NCBI RefSeq assembly: GCF_034479555.1
Contig: NZ_CP140151.1
Coordinates: forward strand, 868,001 to 932,000
Direction of reading: 5' to 3'
Origin: Chromohalobacter canadensis
GTDB taxonomy: Bacteria > Pseudomonadota > Gammaproteobacteria > Pseudomonadales > Halomonadaceae
DNA length: 64,000 bases
Below are positions 28,731 through 37,228 of the stretch, one piece after another (position 1 is the first letter of the stretch; every line of letters begins with the position of its first letter). Position numbers and translations under genes: made by a program. The notes beneath the pieces were generated by a model. The model saw only the letters and a program-made list of their open reading frames with translations, did not search any database and had not been told where the DNA came from.

Positions 28731-29264
28731 TCATTCAGCCGCAGTTTGCGTGGGCACCCCCGCTATGGCCATATCAGCGATATCCATGAAGATGGCGTCG
28801 AGTTCTCGTGCCTTGTCGGCGAGTGCAGAGGCGCGTTTGTCATCGTCGAGATCGGCGACATAAGGCGCGAAGATCGCACTGGGCTTCTTCCAAGACAATG
28901 TCGCGGTGCCGTCTTGGTTTTCGGTCACGTAAAAGCGGATCGGTGCCTCGATCATCGCCGGTACGCTCAAGCGTAGAATATCGACCGCGAAGTCGTTGCG
29001 AAACACGCCCACCACCCGGTTACCGGGAATCTCCACACCGCGTTGGGCGGCTGCCTGAGTCGGTCCGACTTCGGTGACCACACCCATGTCATTGGCGTCG
29101 ACGGCCTGCTTGAGATGCTCGAGCAGCGCGCTGTAACGCTGTTCGGTGGGGATCACGTGCCAGTCCTTCTGCGGCCAATGGGTGTCGGCCATGGCGGGCG
29201 ATACCCAGGCTGCCAGCGTGAGCGCCAGGGCGAGGAAAAGGGACGTGGGAAGCGGGAGTTTCAT
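28731..29264 (-). CDS. Periplasmic DUF302 protein
   Basis: The 177-residue protein has a clear Sec signal (LFLALALTLAAWVSPAMA, cleavage about residue 26) followed by a DUF302 domain (SALLEHLKQAVDANDMGVV, NRVVGVFRNDFAVDILRL). The function of DUF302 is unknown; members are often found near thiol or metal stress genes. Its start overlaps the stop of the DinB-like gene by 4 bp (ATGA). It is therefore the last gene of the reverse-strand operon that contains the TTL-PqqD protein and the acidic repeat peptides. Confidence 0.85.
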   Translation of the reverse strand: MKLPLPTSLFLALALTLAAWVSPAMADTHWPQKDWHVIPTEQRYSALLEHLKQAVDANDMGVVTEVGPTQAAAQRGVEIPGNRVVGVFRNDFAVDILRLSVPAMIEAPIRFYVTENQDGTATLSWKKPSAIFAPYVADLDDDKRASALADKARELDAIFMDIADMAIAGVPTQTAAE

Positions 29265-29815
29265 GATGTCACCTCATGGTTTGATGGGCGGTTATTTTGC
29301 CAATGACGCTGTGTCGAGGGGTGTACGCCGAACGTCTCGGCGACCTCGATACCTTGAGTGTCGGCGAGTAAGGCGATGATCGCCATGTGATGAATGGCGT
29401 GACTGGTCAAGAAGACCAGTTCGCGCTCGACGCTGGTGTTCAAGGGCAACACGTGGTCGCCGGCTCGATATGCCAGTTGGCGACAGTGCGTGGCCGTATC
29501 GCGCTGCCCGAGTCGGGTCAGGCGCTCGCGCACGTGATGTAGATGCGCGAATGCGACGTCCGGGTGTCGCTCGATATCAGGGTCGCGCCGGCGATGCTCG
29601 TAGTTGATGGTGAAGGCCTGAGCCTCGTATCCCACGGCCAATAACGCCTCGTAGTGATCCAGGATATGTCGGACATGCTTGCCGATGGAGTGCCTGGCAT
29701 CCGCGCCATGTGGCGCGGTGTACTGAGCCGCCGGCAGCATTGCCACGAATGTCGCCAACTGTCGCAGGGTATCGGCGGCTTCCTCCAGCAAGGCATTCAA
29801 TGCAGGGGTGGACAT
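29261..29815 (-). CDS. DinB-like four-helix protein
   Basis: This 184-residue protein of the DinB/YfiT-like fold has histidines at the expected metal positions (HSIGKHVRHILDHYEALL near residues 42-59, and TSHAIHHMAIIALL near 138-151). Members are metal-dependent thiol S-transferases or uncharacterised enzymes. It lies 71 bp behind the acidic repeat peptide gene and overlaps the DUF302 gene by 4 bp, so it is probably co-transcribed with the putative peptide system. Confidence 0.8.
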   Translation of the reverse strand: MSTPALNALLEEAADTLRQLATFVAMLPAAQYTAPHGADARHSIGKHVRHILDHYEALLAVGYEAQAFTINYEHRRRDPDIERHPDVAFAHLHHVRERLTRLGQRDTATHCRQLAYRAGDHVLPLNTSVERELVFLTSHAIHHMAIIALLADTQGIEVAETFGVHPSTQRHWQNNRPSNHEVTS

Positions 29816-29886: not shown

Positions 29887-30150
29887 TCAGGCGCTACCTT
29901 CGGCTTCTCCTTCGGCTTCTCCTTCGGCTTCTCCTTCCCCCTCTCCTTCGCCTTCTGCCTCGCCCTCGGCGTTCGCCATGAGCGGGGCACCGCCTTGCAG
30001 CGATGTGTAGCCGCCGGCACCCACGGCATCGTCAGCGACGGCCTGAGCGGCGAGCGGAGCGGACATCAGCAGTAGCATGGGTGTCGTGTAGAGCACCTGC
30101 CGGCTCAGTCGCCCCATCAGGGTATAACGCTTGCTTTCATGTAGTGTCAT
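29887..30150 (-). CDS. Small acidic Glu-Gly/Ala repeat protein, candidate modified peptide (87 aa)
   Basis: I do not know a family for this protein. Residues 1-38 form a basic then hydrophobic leader ([18 protein letters not shown], then a signal-like stretch ending LAAQAVA). Residues 61-87 are a tail in which Glu alternates strictly with Ala or Gly, 12 Glu in 27 residues, ending EGSA. The tail resembles eukaryotic tubulin C-terminal tails (EGEGEEE-type). The start ATG has AGGAG 8 nt upstream, so it is a real gene. It is a paralog of the next upstream protein: both share T-L-[LM]-x2-L-S-R-x3-Y-[ST]-x-P-x-L. Encoded with a TTL-PqqD enzyme and DoxX, it is a plausible substrate peptide. Confidence 0.75.
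29896..29970 (-). repeat. 12-nt tandem repeats coding the Glu-Gly/Ala tail
   Basis: On the + strand the unit is approximately TTCGGCTTCTCC, repeated with variants; read on the - strand it encodes Gly-Glu-Ala-Glu. Confidence 0.85.
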
Positions 30151-30220
30151 GATTTCACTCCTTTTTCCTGCAGTGATTGACGGTGCAAGGCACCGCCGTC
30201 TAAGAGGCCTTGACGCGTCG

Positions 30221-30556
30221 TCAACCGGCCTCGGAACTCGCTTCGGCTTCGGCTTCGGGGTTGGCTTCGGCTTCGGGGTTGGCTTCGGCCTCTGCTTCGG
30301 CTTCAGGGTTGGCTTCGGCTTCGGGGTTGGCTTCGGCCTCTGCTTCGGCTTCAGGGCTGGCCTCTGCTTCGGGACCGGCTTCCGCCTCGGGGCTGGCCTC
30401 GGCCGAGGCGAACATGTAGTACCCCGAGGGAGTGGCCAGGTCAGAGTAGATCGCATGCACGGCTGATCCGCCGACCAACACGGCGAGTGCCGGGACGCTG
30501 TAGGCGATACCGCGTGACAGGGTATCGAGCAGGGTGCGACGTGAGTGCAGGGTCAT
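30221..30556 (-). CDS. Small acidic Pro-Glu-Ala repeat protein, candidate modified peptide (111 aa)
   Basis: The N-terminus ([20 protein letters not shown], then a hydrophobic [15 protein letters not shown]) aligns with that of the neighbouring 87-residue protein. Residues 51-111 are built from PEAEAxx units (Glu alternating with Ala, Pro, Gly, Ser or Asn), without Cys or Lys. There is no recognised domain. It is the second gene after DoxX in the reverse-strand operon. A shared leader with divergent repetitive acidic cores is what one expects of a precursor-peptide pair. It could alternatively be a simple low-complexity envelope protein. Confidence 0.72.
30227..30400 (-). repeat. Tandem repeats coding the PEAEA tail
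   Basis: On the + strand, near-identical units such as TTCGGCTTCGGGGTTGGC recur about every 18-30 nt. They encode Asn-Pro-Glu-Ala-Glu-Ala on the - strand, with the reading frame fully kept. Confidence 0.85.
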
Positions 30557-30599
30557 GAGGTATGCTCCGTTGTGACTCGCCAGGATGATGATGATCGGT

Positions 30600-31028
30600 T
30601 CAGCTATGATTGCCCCTGGCCATCATGAACAGGGCGATCAGTATCAGCGTGACCTGAAACATCATGCCGCCGAGCGGGTGGCTGGCGGTGGCCATGAAGT
30701 GCCACTGGCCCCAGTGCTCCATGAAGATCGCGCCCAGCAGAATCGGCACTGCAAACAGGGCGCCGACACGGGTGATGGCATCGCCCACGGGCCCGGCTAT
30801 CAGCCCACCGAGCAGAATCAGCGCACCGGTAGAAATCTCGCCCAGGGCGACGGCCAGGGCGATGACCCAGGGCAGCGCCATGATCTGGGCAAAGCCCTCG
30901 ATGCCGGCGCCCGCGAACTTGTCGACGCCGGTGTACAAGAAGACGCTTGCCATGGCCGCACGCAGCAGCCAATGCGCCCATGAAGCGCGGGGGAGAGAGG
31001 CGGAAGCTTTCAGTGCTGACGTCATCAT
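30600..31028 (-). CDS. DoxX-family membrane protein
   Basis: The 142-residue protein has four hydrophobic segments and the DoxX signature (LLRAAMASVFLYTGVDKF; ALGEISTGALILLGG). I start at 31028, 9 nt after AGGAG. DoxX proteins are membrane components of unclear biochemical role; a DoxX protein is a regular partner of copper-binding bufferin RiPP loci. Here it lies between the TTL-PqqD gene (59 bp upstream) and the two small repeat proteins. Confidence 0.87.
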   Translation of the reverse strand: MMTSALKASASLPRASWAHWLLRAAMASVFLYTGVDKFAGAGIEGFAQIMALPWVIALAVALGEISTGALILLGGLIAGPVGDAITRVGALFAVPILLGAIFMEHWGQWHFMATASHPLGGMMFQVTLILIALFMMARGNHS

Positions 31029-31087
31029 GTGTCGGTTCTCCTGGTGGACGATGTGGTAACGCCGGGCGCGGAGCGCCGGCGTGGGCT

Positions 31088-33424
31088 TCACGATCCGGTC
31101 GATAGGGCATGCGGTGTGGCGTCTTCCAGGCGTTCTCTCGCCAGTTCCGGCGCGTCGCTGGGCAACGAGAACCTCGGCAGCGCCGCAAGCCAGTCGAGCA
31201 AGGCGTTGACGTCGTGCCCGTCGGGGGGACGCCTGTCGGCATACCGAGATGCCGGTAGCAGCGTTGCAAGAAGCGTCAGCGGGGTCGGCGCGGGCGCGTC
31301 GCCATTACAGAGCGCGGCCCCGACGATGTGCAGCTCGGTCGATGGGCTGGGCGAGGGAGCGATGAGTCGTCCTCCGGGGGCGGCCAAGGGAAGTGCCAGC
31401 ATGTGGACTCGGTCGCCTGCCTGACGGTGCCAGGCCAGGCCACGCATCAGGCGGTAGCCGAGCGGCTCGACCAGGGCGCGCAGTGGTTGCCAGTCGTCAT
31501 CGGCCATGGCCACGAGAACAGCCGCATCGGGCGTATCGGGATGAACCAGGAGCGCGGTGTCGATCATCATCTGACCTTCGGCGAGTGCGCGTCGGCCGAG
31601 CGTGTCGACCAGGCGGGGGCCGAGCTCGGCGAGGCCGAGATGAGAGGCTACCCGCTCTGTGCCGATCATGATGGCGTAGCCACTGGGCTCCTGGATCAGC
31701 TCGAGGCGTGGCAACGGGTCGCCCTGGGCGGATTCCAGCGGTGTGAGCGCCCCCGCCAGTCGCTCTCGTGCTGCCTGACTATCGCTGCGCAAGTCCCAAT
31801 GGCAGCCCGCGATGGCAAGGTAGGTCGGTACCAGGGTGGTCGTCTTCGCGGGCGCCGTCTTCACGTGCGTCGCGACTGTGGACGATGTGCCTGCGTCCGG
31901 GTGGGTCGCTAGTTGTTGCAAAAGCCCCTGGCGGCACCAAGCCTCCAGGCATTGCCAGACGTGGCGCTCCAGAGCATCGCGATCGGGCGGAGTGTGGCCG
32001 ACCTGGCTGGCCTGATACAAATGATCGGCGATGGTATTTGGGGGTTCGCCCTCGCTTGCCAGCAGCCAGATCAGGGCGGCACTGTCGTTGAGCGCGAGCA
32101 AACTTCCGCGCTGCGTGTCGTACAGCACCAGGCTGTCGTTATCGATCAGCTCGCAGACCTGGCCACGTTGCAGCTGGGGCTCGGCCGGTGCTGGGTCATC
32201 GAGCGCGCCGGCCAGTCGCCAGTCCAGGCGGCTGGGCAGGGTGAAGAACGTCAGGTAGTCAGCGGGCGTCGCGCTTGGGTAAAGACGCAGAAAATCCCCT
32301 GCGCGTGACAGTTCGCGTTGGGCATCGTCGCGCAAGGTCTGGGGGGAGTCGTCGTTGGTCGGTGTCTCCTGAGCGTCGATATCCACCAGTTCGACCATGT
32401 CCTCGACCAGGCGCCGCTTGATGGCTTCCTCCAGCGGTCCGCCGCTGTCGGGGCCGGCGCAAACGCCCAACGAGGGGCTCAGGTTGCATTCCAGAACCCA
32501 GGGCTTGAGGTAGGCGTCGACCAGGCAATCGATACCCAGCAATTCATAGCCGCCGCGACTATCGATATCGTCCTCGGCACAGCGCTGGCGAAAACTGTCC
32601 ACGGCTGCAATGACGGTGAGCGTCAACTGGTCGTGGAGGCGTTCGAACAAGGCGTCGTCATCATGCCCTTGTTCGCGAAGCCACGCGCGGTAGCGATCCA
32701 AGTCGATGAACTCGACGGGTACCTCTGCATCGGTGTTGTGGGCGTTGATGTCGGGGTTGGTGAGATGGCTATAGAGGTTGCCGGTATCGTCGTGATCGTA
32801 GGGGGCTGACGCCAGCTTGGCGAAGCCCTGCCGATACACGTAGAGACGCAGAGGATCGAGCGATGCAAGCAGCACGTAAAGGCGCAGGACGTATTTGTGC
32901 CCGCGGATGGTGTGCGGCTCGTCGAGATACTCCTGGACCAGCCAGTTGGCGTGCCGGGGCGCGTCGGCGGCATCGTCGAGCAGGCGGATGCCCTTGCCCT
33001 TGGAGGCATTGGAAGGCTTGAGGATCCAGCGCCGTGCCGGATTGGCCAGGGCGGCTTCCTGCAAGGCATGATAATCGTCAGGCATCAGATAGGCGCGCGG
33101 GAAGAAGTCGAGTCGCGCAACCTGTGACGCATGCGGGCCGAAGCGCTCGCCCATTCGCTCACGTAGTGTCGCCAGCGATTGATACAGCCTGCTTTTCAGC
33201 GTCAGCGCATTGTTGCCGGGCAGATGATTGAGCCTGTGCCTCGGCGTCAGCTTGCGAAACTGCGCCATCTCGGGGGTGCCTGTGAACCAGCCCGCTTGCC
33301 AGTCCTCGGCACTGCCCGCTCGCCAGCCGCGGGCTTCGAGTGCCTCGCGGAAGAAACGGTCCTGCTCGTCGGCGCGTTTGCCTCCCAGCCAATAGCGACG
33401 CGCTTGAGACGATGGGTTGGTCAT
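31088..33424 (-). CDS. Tubulin-tyrosine-ligase-like ATP-grasp protein with PqqD-like and possibly degenerate HprK-related domains
   Basis: This 778-residue protein has three parts. Residues ~90-350 form a TTL-family ATP-grasp domain with all hallmark motifs: WILKPSNASKGKGI (K136), VQEYLDEPHTIRGHKYVLRL (K177, R181), HLTNPDIN (220-227) and LLGIDCLVD...KPWVLECNLSPSLG (D299, E312, N314). Residues ~420-505 match PqqD-like chaperones (LVLYDTQRGSLLALNDSAAL), which bind leader peptides in RiPP systems. Residues ~530-690 weakly resemble HprK-related kinases of PqqD systems but lack a GxxGxGKS P-loop. I start at MTNPSSQA; the open frame continues upstream without a better start. It heads a six-gene operon with the two acidic repeat peptides. 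Predicted role: ATP-dependent amino acid ligation on those tails. Confidence 0.85.
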   Translation of the reverse strand: MTNPSSQARRYWLGGKRADEQDRFFREALEARGWRAGSAEDWQAGWFTGTPEMAQFRKLTPRHRLNHLPGNNALTLKSRLYQSLATLRERMGERFGPHASQVARLDFFPRAYLMPDDYHALQEAALANPARRWILKPSNASKGKGIRLLDDAADAPRHANWLVQEYLDEPHTIRGHKYVLRLYVLLASLDPLRLYVYRQGFAKLASAPYDHDDTGNLYSHLTNPDINAHNTDAEVPVEFIDLDRYRAWLREQGHDDDALFERLHDQLTLTVIAAVDSFRQRCAEDDIDSRGGYELLGIDCLVDAYLKPWVLECNLSPSLGVCAGPDSGGPLEEAIKRRLVEDMVELVDIDAQETPTNDDSPQTLRDDAQRELSRAGDFLRLYPSATPADYLTFFTLPSRLDWRLAGALDDPAPAEPQLQRGQVCELIDNDSLVLYDTQRGSLLALNDSAALIWLLASEGEPPNTIADHLYQASQVGHTPPDRDALERHVWQCLEAWCRQGLLQQLATHPDAGTSSTVATHVKTAPAKTTTLVPTYLAIAGCHWDLRSDSQAARERLAGALTPLESAQGDPLPRLELIQEPSGYAIMIGTERVASHLGLAELGPRLVDTLGRRALAEGQMMIDTALLVHPDTPDAAVLVAMADDDWQPLRALVEPLGYRLMRGLAWHRQAGDRVHMLALPLAAPGGRLIAPSPSPSTELHIVGAALCNGDAPAPTPLTLLATLLPASRYADRRPPDGHDVNALLDWLAALPRFSLPSDAPELARERLEDATPHALSTGS

Positions 33425-33622: not shown

Positions 33623-34828
33623 ATGACGTTTTCGCGAGGCTTGCTGGTAACGGCGTTGTCGCTGTTGCCGACCATGGGGCAAGCATACGAGCTGTCCGAC
33701 TGGGAATCGGTGACCGAGGCGGCCCGGGGACAGACCGTGTACTGGAATGCCTGGGGCGGCGATCCGCGAACCAACGCTTATATCGACTGGGCGGCCGAGC
33801 AGGTCGACGAGCGCTACGGGATCGACCTCGAGCATGTCAAGGTGGGTGATACCGGCGAGGCAGTGACCCGCGTAGTGGCCGAGAAAGCAGCGGGTAACGA
33901 CGATCAGGGCGCGGTCGATCTGATCTGGCTCAACGGCGAGAATTTCGCCGCCATGAAGGACAACGACCTACTTTATGGCCCCTGGGCCGAGCAGCTGCCC
34001 CATTTTCCGCTGACCGCGCCCGAGCAGAACCCCGAGGTGCGCGAGGACTTCACCCTGCCGGTCGAGGGCTACGAAGCGCCCTGGGGGCGTGCGCAGATCA
34101 CCTTCTATTACGACAGCGCGCGTGTCGATGAGCCGCCGCGCAGCATATCCGCGCTGCTCGACTGGGCCCAGGCGCATCCGGGGCGATTCACCTATCCCCA
34201 GCCGCCGGCCTTTCTGGGCACGACCTTCCTCAAGCAGGCACTGCTGGCCTTGACCGAGCACCGTGAGGCGCTTTATGCACCGGTCGACGAGGCCGATTTC
34301 GAGTCCGTCACCGCACCGCTGTGGGACTACCTGGACCGCTTGCATCCCTCTCTGTGGCGCGAGGGCGAGCGCTTCCCCGCGGGCGGGCCACAGATGCGTC
34401 AGCTGATGGGCGACGGGGCGTTGAGCCTGGCGTTCACCTTTACCCCCTCCGCCCCGGCCGCCGCGGTCCTCGATTATCAACTGCCACCGACCACGCGCAG
34501 TTACATCCTCGACGATGGCACGCTGGGCAACGTGCATTTCGTCGCCATTCCCTTCAATGCCCAGCACAAGGCCGGCGCCTTGACGGTCGCCAACTTCTTG
34601 CTCTCGCCCGAGGCCCAGGCCCGCAAGCAGGACCTTTCGCTGTGGGGCGATGCCACGGTGTTGGACATGTCGCGCCTGAACTCCGAGCAGCGTGAGGCGT
34701 TCGCGCGCGATGGCCGGGCCGCCGAGAGCCTGCCGCCGCCCTCCTTGGGCGAGACGCTGCGCGAACCCCATCCCTCCTGGATCGAGCCGCTCGAGAAGGC
34801 CTGGCGGCAGCGTTACGGCGCGCAATGA
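33623..34828 (+). CDS. ynjB: YnjB-type ABC transporter substrate-binding protein
   Basis: The 401-residue protein has a signal peptide (about residues 1-21, ending GQA) and an extracellular binding-protein fold typical of YnjB (TVYWNAWGGDPRTNAYIDW; DLIWLNGENFAAMK). Its stop overlaps the start of the permease gene (ATGA). It diverges from the TTL-PqqD gene across 198 bp in which I see no gene. The E. coli ynjBCD substrate is not firmly known; none can be assigned here. Confidence 0.88.
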   Translation: MTFSRGLLVTALSLLPTMGQAYELSDWESVTEAARGQTVYWNAWGGDPRTNAYIDWAAEQVDERYGIDLEHVKVGDTGEAVTRVVAEKAAGNDDQGAVDLIWLNGENFAAMKDNDLLYGPWAEQLPHFPLTAPEQNPEVREDFTLPVEGYEAPWGRAQITFYYDSARVDEPPRSISALLDWAQAHPGRFTYPQPPAFLGTTFLKQALLALTEHREALYAPVDEADFESVTAPLWDYLDRLHPSLWREGERFPAGGPQMRQLMGDGALSLAFTFTPSAPAAAVLDYQLPPTTRSYILDDGTLGNVHFVAIPFNAQHKAGALTVANFLLSPEAQARKQDLSLWGDATVLDMSRLNSEQREAFARDGRAAESLPPPSLGETLREPHPSWIEPLEKAWRQRYGAQ

Positions 34829-36537
34829 CATCGGCCGTTGCCTATCGGCTCGTCGTCGGTGTCCTGCCCTGGCTGACCATCGCCTTGCTCAGCGTGCCAG
34901 TGGTCGCCGGTGTGCTGGGGGCGCTGGCACCGGCGTTCGGCTGGTTGCCGGCACTCGGCGGTGAGCGCCTGACCCTGGCGCCCTGGCGGCAGCTCTTCGC
35001 GGTGCCGGGAATCGTCGACATGGCACGGCTCAGCCTGGTGACCGGGCTGGTCAGCGCGGCGTTGTCACTGGGTCTGGTGGTACTGTTCCTGGGCAGTTTC
35101 CTGCATACGGCGCTGTATCGGCGCATCCAGCGCTGGCTGTCACCGCTGCTGGCGGTGCCCCACGCGGCGGCGGCGATCGGCCTGGCGTTCCTGCTGGCGC
35201 CGTCGGGATGGGCGGCGCGGGGAATCTCGCCCTGGCTGAGCGGCTGGGCCTACCCGCCGGATTATGCGTTTCCCGGCGATGCCTGGGGGCTTTCGTTGAT
35301 CCTGGGGCTGGTCGTCAAGGAGGTGCCCTTCCTGCTGCTGATGAGCCTGGCGGCCCTGGTGCAATGCCAGGCCGGCGAGCGCCTGCGCGTGGCACGCAGT
35401 CTGGGCTATCGTCCGCTGACGGCCTTTCTCAAGGGTGTCATGCCCGGGCTCTACCCCTTGCTGCGGTTGCCCCTCTACGCGGTGATCGCCTTTGCCACCT
35501 CGACGGTGGACGTAGCCATGATCCTGGGCCCCACGACGCCTTCCACGCTGGCGGTGTCGGTGGTCGGCTGGCTCAACGATCCCGCGCTGTCGATGCGCTT
35601 CATGGCCTCGGCGGGGGCGATGCTGCAACTGCTGCTGACGCTGGCTGCCTTGTTGATATGGTGGGCACTGGAGCGATTGGTGGCGCGCGCCAGCCGGGGC
35701 TGGTGCCGGGACGGGCGGCGCCAGTGCGGTGATCGCTGGCTGGCCGGTATGGCCTGGCTGGCCATGCGCACCGTGCTGGGCCTGATGATGGCCGCGCTGG
35801 CGGGACTGGCGCTGTGGTCGGTGGCCGGGTACTGGCCGTTCCCGGCGTTCCTTCCCTGGCCGCCGACCGCGCACAACTGGCTGAACGCGGCCGATGATCT
35901 GGCTGCCCCGGTGTGGCAGTCGCTCGGCGTCGCGCTCGCCGCGACCCTGGTCTCCGTGGTGCTGGTGCTAGGCGCGCTGGAGGCGGAGACCCAGCGCCGC
36001 CGGCCGATGCGCCCCTGGGCGCAACTGATCCTGTACCTGCCGCTACTGGTGCCATCGGTGGCGTTTCTGTTCGGGCTGGTCATGATGCAGGCGCAAATGG
36101 GCGTCCGGCCCGGCCTGGGTGCGGTCATCATCGGGCACGCAGTGTTCGTGCTGCCTTATGTCTTCCTGTCGCTGGCGGAAAGCTATCGACGCCTGGACCC
36201 GCGCTGGGGCCAGCAGGCGAGCAGCCTCGGTGCCGGCCCCTGGCGGATCTTCTGGCGCGTGCGTCTGCCACTATTATTGACACCGGTACTGACCGCAGCG
36301 GCGGTGGGCTTCGCGGTGAGCATCGGCCAGTATCTGCCAACGCTGCTGCTAGGTGCCGGGCGCGTGGTCACGGTGACCACCGAGGCGGTCAGCCTGGCGA
36401 GCGGTGGAGACCGCCGGCTGACGGCCATTTACGCCCTGCTGCAACTGTTGCTGCCGGCGCTGGGCTTCATGCTGGCGATGCTGGTGCCGCGTTACGTGTT
36501 TCGACGGCGGCGCGGTCTGCTGCCAGGTGCCGACTGA
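34825..36537 (+). CDS. ynjC: YnjC-type ABC transporter permease (fused double permease)
   Basis: This 570-residue permease contains two BPD-transp domains in one chain, each ending in an EAA-like loop (AGERLRVARSLGYRPLTAFLK near residue 190, and QQASSLGAGPWRIFWRVRLP near 470), as in YnjC. It has about twelve hydrophobic segments. It begins within the ATGA overlap with ynjB and is followed after 16 bp by the ATPase gene. Confidence 0.9.
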   Translation: MTSAVAYRLVVGVLPWLTIALLSVPVVAGVLGALAPAFGWLPALGGERLTLAPWRQLFAVPGIVDMARLSLVTGLVSAALSLGLVVLFLGSFLHTALYRRIQRWLSPLLAVPHAAAAIGLAFLLAPSGWAARGISPWLSGWAYPPDYAFPGDAWGLSLILGLVVKEVPFLLLMSLAALVQCQAGERLRVARSLGYRPLTAFLKGVMPGLYPLLRLPLYAVIAFATSTVDVAMILGPTTPSTLAVSVVGWLNDPALSMRFMASAGAMLQLLLTLAALLIWWALERLVARASRGWCRDGRRQCGDRWLAGMAWLAMRTVLGLMMAALAGLALWSVAGYWPFPAFLPWPPTAHNWLNAADDLAAPVWQSLGVALAATLVSVVLVLGALEAETQRRRPMRPWAQLILYLPLLVPSVAFLFGLVMMQAQMGVRPGLGAVIIGHAVFVLPYVFLSLAESYRRLDPRWGQQASSLGAGPWRIFWRVRLPLLLTPVLTAAAVGFAVSIGQYLPTLLLGAGRVVTVTTEAVSLASGGDRRLTAIYALLQLLLPALGFMLAMLVPRYVFRRRRGLLPGAD

Positions 36538-36553
36538 CGAAAGGACTCATGCC

Positions 36554-37228
36554 ATGGCGTCATTGATTCTCGACGACATCGTCATTCATCAGGGGCAGCA
36601 ACGTCTGCTGAGCCTGGACACGGCGGTCGCCCCCGGCGAGGTGCTGACCGTCATGGGGCCCTCCGGCGTCGGCAAGTCCACCTTGCTGGCGTTCATCGCG
36701 GGGTTTTTGAGCCCGGCGTTCCAGGCGCAAGGGCGCGTGCTGCTCGAGGAGACGCGAATCGATACGCTACCCGCCGAGCAGCGCCATGTGGGGCTACTCT
36801 TTCAGGATCCGCTGCTGTTTCCGCATCTCGATGTGGCCGGCAACCTGGCCTTCGGCATGGTGCGTGAAGGGACGCGTCGGCAACGCCGCGCGCGAATCCA
36901 TGACGCCCTGTCGTCGGTGGGGCTGGAGGCGTTCGCGGGGCGCGATCCGTCGACGCTCTCCGGCGGACAGAAGGCGCGAGTGGCCCTGTTGCGGGTGCTG
37001 TTGTCGCAGCCGCGCGCGATCCTGCTCGACGAGCCGTTCTCCAAGCTGGATGCCGCCCGGCGCGACGAAATCCGCCACTGGGTCTTCGCGCGTGTGCGGG
37101 ATCACCGCCTCCCGACGTTGATGGTGACCCACGACGAAGCCGACGCCCGGGCGGCCGGCGGGCGTATCCTGTGGTTGACCGAACGAGGCACCGTCATGGG
37201 GCCCACCGATCAGGAGGAACGTGCATGA
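36554..37228 (+). CDS. ynjD: YnjD-type ABC transporter ATP-binding protein
   Basis: The 224-residue ATPase has Walker A GPSGVGKST, signature LSGGQKARVALLR, Walker B AILLDEPFSKLD and H-loop VTHDEAD. I start at MASLILDDI with AAGGA upstream. The stop overlaps the DUF3047 start (ATGA), so that protein is probably made together with the transporter. Confidence 0.92.
   Translation: MASLILDDIVIHQGQQRLLSLDTAVAPGEVLTVMGPSGVGKSTLLAFIAGFLSPAFQAQGRVLLEETRIDTLPAEQRHVGLLFQDPLLFPHLDVAGNLAFGMVREGTRRQRRARIHDALSSVGLEAFAGRDPSTLSGGQKARVALLRVLLSQPRAILLDEPFSKLDAARRDEIRHWVFARVRDHRLPTLMVTHDEADARAAGGRILWLTERGTVMGPTDQEERA

Follow-up and report, generated by a model that had tools for sequence, protein, structure and literature searches.

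The window analyzed here, a stretch of 64,000 nucleotides from the 3.6-Mb, single-contig genome of Chromohalobacter canadensis, encodes on its minus strand a TTL ATP-grasp protein fused to a PqqD-type domain (the TTL-PqqD ligase) and two small proteins with Glu-repeat tails (peptides 1 and 2). We regard it as likely that these genes constitute a leader-guided tail-modification system with the logic of the ribosomally synthesized and post-translationally modified peptides (RiPPs), an explanation based on the genes, homology, predicted folds, a residue signature and co-occurrence. That the enzyme is paired with the Glu-repeat tails is very probable. The initial annotation had described a 778-residue protein with TTL and PqqD-like parts and two small proteins with Glu-alternating tails; all are found in place, with both Pfam domains above cut-off, and a DoxX gene, which that description lacks, separates the ligase from peptide 1. 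The order of the apparent operon is TTL-PqqD ligase, DoxX, peptide 1, peptide 2, DinB-like and DUF302. The principal genes and their parts are:

33424 (ATG) to 31088 (stop), minus strand: TTL-PqqD ligase, 778 residues, with TTLL-type ATP-grasp, PqqD/RRE and HprK/PEPCK-like domains
32243..33409, minus strand: TTLL-like catalytic region of the ligase, residues 6-394
31913..32173, minus strand: PqqD/RRE domain of the ligase, about residues 418-504
31106..31858, minus strand: C-terminal domain of the ligase, about residues 523-773, of HprK/PEPCK-like predicted fold
30221..30556, minus strand: peptide 1 precursor, 111 residues, leader/signal followed by a Glu-repeat tail
30452..30556, minus strand: leader and Sec-like signal of peptide 1, residues 1-35, ending in AVHA, from the leader alignment
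29887..30150, minus strand: peptide 2 precursor, 87 residues, leader of the same type followed by an E-G/A tail

The catalytic region of the ligase matches the Pfam TTL profile at residues 63-345 with 182.2 bits (cut-off 20.1), as do all 58 aligned homologues, and both its sequence and its predicted fold are TTLL6-like. Its nearest solved homologues are TTLL-family amino-acid ligases, and ligation of an amino acid is the highly likely reaction. K136, Q164, K177, R181, N223, D299, E312 and N314, which we take to form the ATP/Mg site, are kept in 58/58 homologues. Database names of the protein include "tubulin polyglutamylase TTLL5", "PqqD family peptide modification chaperone" and "amylase". 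A simple hydropathy scan of the ligase gave neither a hydrophobic signal nor a membrane segment; the enzyme should therefore be cytoplasmic. In TTLL6, according to one review, Q180 and H362 govern elongation versus initiation, and an Arg at residue 180 forms a bond with the acceptor Glu and also favors gamma-linked addition (PMC7970040). These positions align with K142 and L315 of the ligase, of which the former is Lys in 32 and Arg in 26 of the homologues and the latter is Leu in all 58. The engineered TTLL6 of PDB 6vzq (Ala179, Arg180, Ile362) aligns to the ligase with 133 bits, compared to 129.4 bits for wild-type TTLL6. The initiase-like residues at 142 and 315 would favor gamma-linked addition to internal Glu residues, and we lean slightly toward Glu itself, in gamma linkage, as the added residue.

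Beyond the catalytic region, Pfam reports PqqD at residues 432-502 (25 bits, cut-off 23.4), and the predicted structure of this part has the leader-binding (RRE) fold. For the C-terminal domain, a P-loop was not visible by eye in the HprK/PEPCK-like predicted fold.

The leader that such a domain would bind is well conserved. A profile of 16 leaders, run at E<=0.001 against a database of 5.8 billion proteins, found 90 related small proteins, and those named by organism belong to Halomonadaceae genera or to Marinobacter. Scored by regular expressions and not by SignalP, the LLxxLxR-type motif is present in 90/90, [YHCA]xxP in 89/90, a hydrophobic core in 88/90 and, under a lax definition, an AxA-like site after the core in 90/90. 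By these features the leader doubles as a Sec-like signal peptide. A precursor of conserved leader and variable core stands beside the enzyme, as in RRE-dependent RiPPs. The tails of these 90 peptides, which were not picked for alternation, are 32% Glu; 68% of their Glu-Glu spacings equal 2, compared to 22% in shuffles, and at least four alternating units occur in 75 of the 89 that are long enough. In peptide 1, Glu alternates mostly with Ala and also with Pro, Asn and Ser; in peptide 2, whose ATG is preceded by AAGGAG, it alternates with Gly/Ala. The repeat recurs in homologues as protein and not as a DNA microsatellite, since the codons are mixed: in 48 tails, selected by a script for alternating runs, Glu is encoded by GAA 385 and by GAG 170 times, and Ala and Gly each draw on all four of their codons.

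The composition of the tails bears on graspetide-like crosslinking, whereby the ATP-grasp enzyme would form links within one peptide, between tail Glu and Lys, Ser or Thr, and add no free amino acid. Lactam and lactone links of this kind are made by graspetide ATP-grasp enzymes (PMC8939145), and many Marinobacter tails have Lys at the alternating positions. The tails of the window peptides, in contrast, are devoid of Lys, and that of peptide 2 has no Thr and one Ser. Together with the solved TTLL homologues of the ligase, and with a main text of the graspetide survey in which neither "TTL" nor "tubulin" occurs (PMC8939145), this makes crosslinking unlikely.

The initial annotation had proposed that a failure of repeat peptides to co-occur with the ligase would speak against the system. 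We made this comparison, and the two do co-occur, which supports its reading of a bacterial system that adds amino acids to, or otherwise modifies, the acidic tails. In the window's family, ligase and leader were each found in 25 of 151 genomes and both in 24 (24/26 of those having either); the exceptions are G021, with a truncated ligase and no leader, and G118, with a leader and no ligase. In the Marinobacter family the ligase was found in 29/151, the leader in 28/151 and both in 27 (27/30 of those having either). In its two genomes with a ligase and no leader, the ligase is fragmentary (65 and 95 aligned residues, with internal stops in one), and the leader-only genome gave a match that is weak (E 0.007) and has two stops. 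Both parts occur in 3/3 genomes of a third family, two of these leaders being part of the profile. Among 369 genomes of the class, leader matches with E<1e-20 fall exactly in the four genomes with a strong ligase match; nine further leader matches are all weak (E 1.8e-4 to 0.0099), and weaker TTL matches occur in eight genomes, none of which has a leader match. Leader genes also occur outside the operon, one of them about 26 kb away in G080 and the cytochromes described next up to about 20 kb away.

Many genomes carry, at a distance of about 1-20 kb from the ligase, a SoxA/TsdA-type cytochrome c whose N-terminus consists of the peptide-type leader followed by a Glu repeat as an internal linker; at locus L011 no other leader-bearing gene was found. 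This c-type cytochrome is a likely third substrate of the ligase. A search for its domain in the 151 genomes of the window's family gave 28 matches. Where the ligase is present, 14 cytochromes have the Glu-repeat linker and one (G008) an NPCA repeat. Where it is absent, nine have the NPCA repeat, one (G118) has the Glu repeat and three have unreadable linkers (G020 and G117 truncated, G081 a remnant). In the ligase-free G020 (locus L232), the cytochrome domain follows immediately on the first residues of the leader, as would result from a loss of signal and Glu linker. Outside the Glu-repeat system, the orthologous NPCA-type cytochromes combine Cys repeats with a signal peptide of the ordinary kind, and in 10/10 of their loci (L235-L244) the next gene downstream is DUF6969-related. 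No such gene follows the cytochrome at L245, the one Glu-type locus compared. Each repeat type thus has its own companion, and the NPCA cytochrome with DUF6969 may represent another repeat module, one based on Cys and having a separate partner.

The cytochrome also bears on ligation at the C-terminus, in which the alpha-carboxylate at the end of the peptide would receive an amino acid or chain, as from TTL (Tyr) or TTLL11 (main-chain Glu chains). Main chains are extended by TTLL11 and TTLL6, as described in PMC12366701, and the C-terminal residue is Gly in 60/89 leader-related peptides. The Glu repeat of the cytochrome is, however, internal and would have no part in a C-terminal reaction, and K/R142 and L315 are initiase-like; we consider this possibility more improbable than crosslinking. 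Least probable is that the acidic tails act unmodified, as metal buffer or flexible charged linker, while the ligase has another substrate and the genes travel together: adjacency by itself yields co-inheritance and G118 retains a Glu-repeat cytochrome, but against this stand the near-exclusive co-occurrence in two families, which extends to leader genes outside the ligase operon, a leader motif in 90/90 peptides that a plain signal peptide would not require, the PqqD/RRE-type domain fused to the ligase, and the shift of cytochrome linker type with ligase presence.

In the leader-guided tail modification that we favor, the cytoplasmic TTL-PqqD enzyme would grip the LLxxLxR...YxxP leader through its PqqD/RRE domain, in other species also that of the related c-type cytochrome. 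Its TTLL ATP-grasp domain would then ligate amino acids, most likely Glu by gamma linkage, onto tail Glu side chains, probably starting branches at alternate residues. Sec would export the modified product and signal peptidase would remove the leader. The polyanionic tail might then serve as a metal or redox partner in the envelope, alongside DoxX, DinB, rhodanese and the ECF sigma/anti-sigma pair; such an envelope role is tentative. An extended version, to which we give even chances, is a bacterial chemistry resembling the tubulin code: a leader-guided TTLL initiase would attach branches of Glu, or of a different amino acid, at every second residue along exported-peptide and cytochrome tails, forming brush-like envelope polyanions, with the Cys-repeat cytochrome and DUF6969 as a functional substitute where the system is absent.

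Several observations weigh against leader-guided modification or parts of it. The Asp of the KxDxR motif of TTLL6 and TTLL7 is Val179 in 58/58 homologues, one deviation in the ATP/Mg site, and the added residue may hence not be Glu. TTLL7, also an initiase, has Met and not a basic residue at the Q180 position, so the initiase signature is not absolute. Pfam reports PqqD in 57 of 120 listed homologues, about half falling below reporting by hand count. The Glu-repeat cytochrome of G118, with no ligase detected, the NPCA cytochrome of the ligase-bearing G008 and the Lys residues in the tails of some species belong here as well. Lastly, Fisher values for the co-occurrence are inflated by gene adjacency and related lineages, and the leader profile was derived from ligase-linked peptides.

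The eukaryotic TTLL glutamylases, TTLL6, TTLL7 and TTLL11 and also TTLL4/5, offer the closest enzymatic comparison. The points of likeness are the catalytic fold, the ATP/Mg-site residues, the Glu-rich acidic tails as presumed acceptors and the initiase-like residues at the Q180 and H362 positions of TTLL6. Unlike these enzymes, the bacterial ligase is fused to PqqD/RRE and HprK-like domains, has Val for the KxDxR Asp and has exported peptides and a cytochrome, not tubulin, as presumed substrates. To our knowledge, tubulin-tail glutamylation is treated as eukaryotic. With RRE-dependent RiPPs, for example lasso peptides, the system shares a PqqD-type domain closest to leader-bound B1 proteins and a conserved leader before a variable core encoded beside the enzyme. 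It differs in that the core is a repeat of variable length and the leader also a Sec-like signal, and we found no RiPP class described with a TTL ligase. We know of no membership of RimK or RloC in the TTL family, nor of an RRE in either. RimK acts on a ribosomal protein in the cytoplasm, which it extends at the C-terminus, whereas the presumed substrates of the TTL-PqqD ligase are exported. The likeness lies in ATP-grasp chemistry and bacterial protein glutamylation, by RimK on RpsF and putatively by RloC (PMC12239564). RpsF and a Legionella target are, as worded in that 2025 paper, the only bacterial proteins known to be polyglutamylated (PMC12239564).

The bufferins and other MNIO-modified peptides resemble the system in their signal-peptide precursors, DoxX partner and nearby ECF sigma and anti-sigma genes, and are, in the text of PMC12452194, a precedent for modified Sec-signal precursors with DoxX and ECF partners. 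The present cores differ in being Glu- and not Cys-based (Cys occurs after residue 48 in 1/90 leader-related peptides), the modifying enzyme is a ligase and the anti-sigma factor is of zf-HC2 and not NrsF type. No MNIO was among 14 neighbor proteins scanned with Pfam, and no search targeting MNIO was made.

The statement of the initial annotation that no system of this make-up was known agrees with our literature searches, which showed no described TTL-PqqD system. This suggests that the enzyme and substrate type are new to RiPP-like logic, not having been found described in that setting. If the proposal is true, the system would constitute a new class of RiPPs and be the first of its kind built on a bacterial TTLL. 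A TTLL in bacteria that is dedicated to leader-bearing substrates of its own would provide a small and tractable model of how TTLL enzymes initiate branches, and it would bear on the origin of the eukaryotic TTLLs. On a more speculative note, poly-Glu-cutting retropepsins, exported in Pseudomonas as described in PMC12239564, might act on acceptors such as exported acidic tails of this kind.

The remaining genes of the operon are:

30600..31028, minus strand: DoxX-family membrane protein, directly upstream of peptide 1 (Pfam DoxX, 33.2 bits)
29261..29815, minus strand: DinB-superfamily protein, a recurrent partner (Pfam DinB)
28731..29264, minus strand: DUF302 protein, a less constant partner (Pfam DUF302), with an N-terminal signal-like segment by eye

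We counted partners over 40 ligase loci; these include the window but neither duplicates nor two distant TTL loci. DinB is directly downstream in 36/40 (one, L107, a weak match), about 3.5-3.8 kb upstream in two and not found in two, one of which ends at a contig edge; its His47, 50, 54, 139, 142 and 143 are invariant in 31/31 aligned proteins. DoxX is present in 10/40 loci and is directly followed by a leader-bearing peptide in 10/10. An ECF sigma factor with zf-HC2 anti-sigma is found in 18/40 and a thioredoxin-like protein in 3/40, and rhodanese, AhpD/CMD-type and TetR genes are frequent. Downstream of the ligase, L101 and L103 have a separate group of ECF sigma, DoxX, leader peptide and zf-HC2 anti-sigma that resembles bufferin gene sets. 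By association only, these partners point to an envelope redox or metal-stress setting.

Divergent ABC-transporter genes adjoin the ligase (33623-37228) and encode a substrate-binding protein, a permease and an ATPase, presumably ynjBCD-like. Relatives of these genes are also near several NPCA cytochromes.

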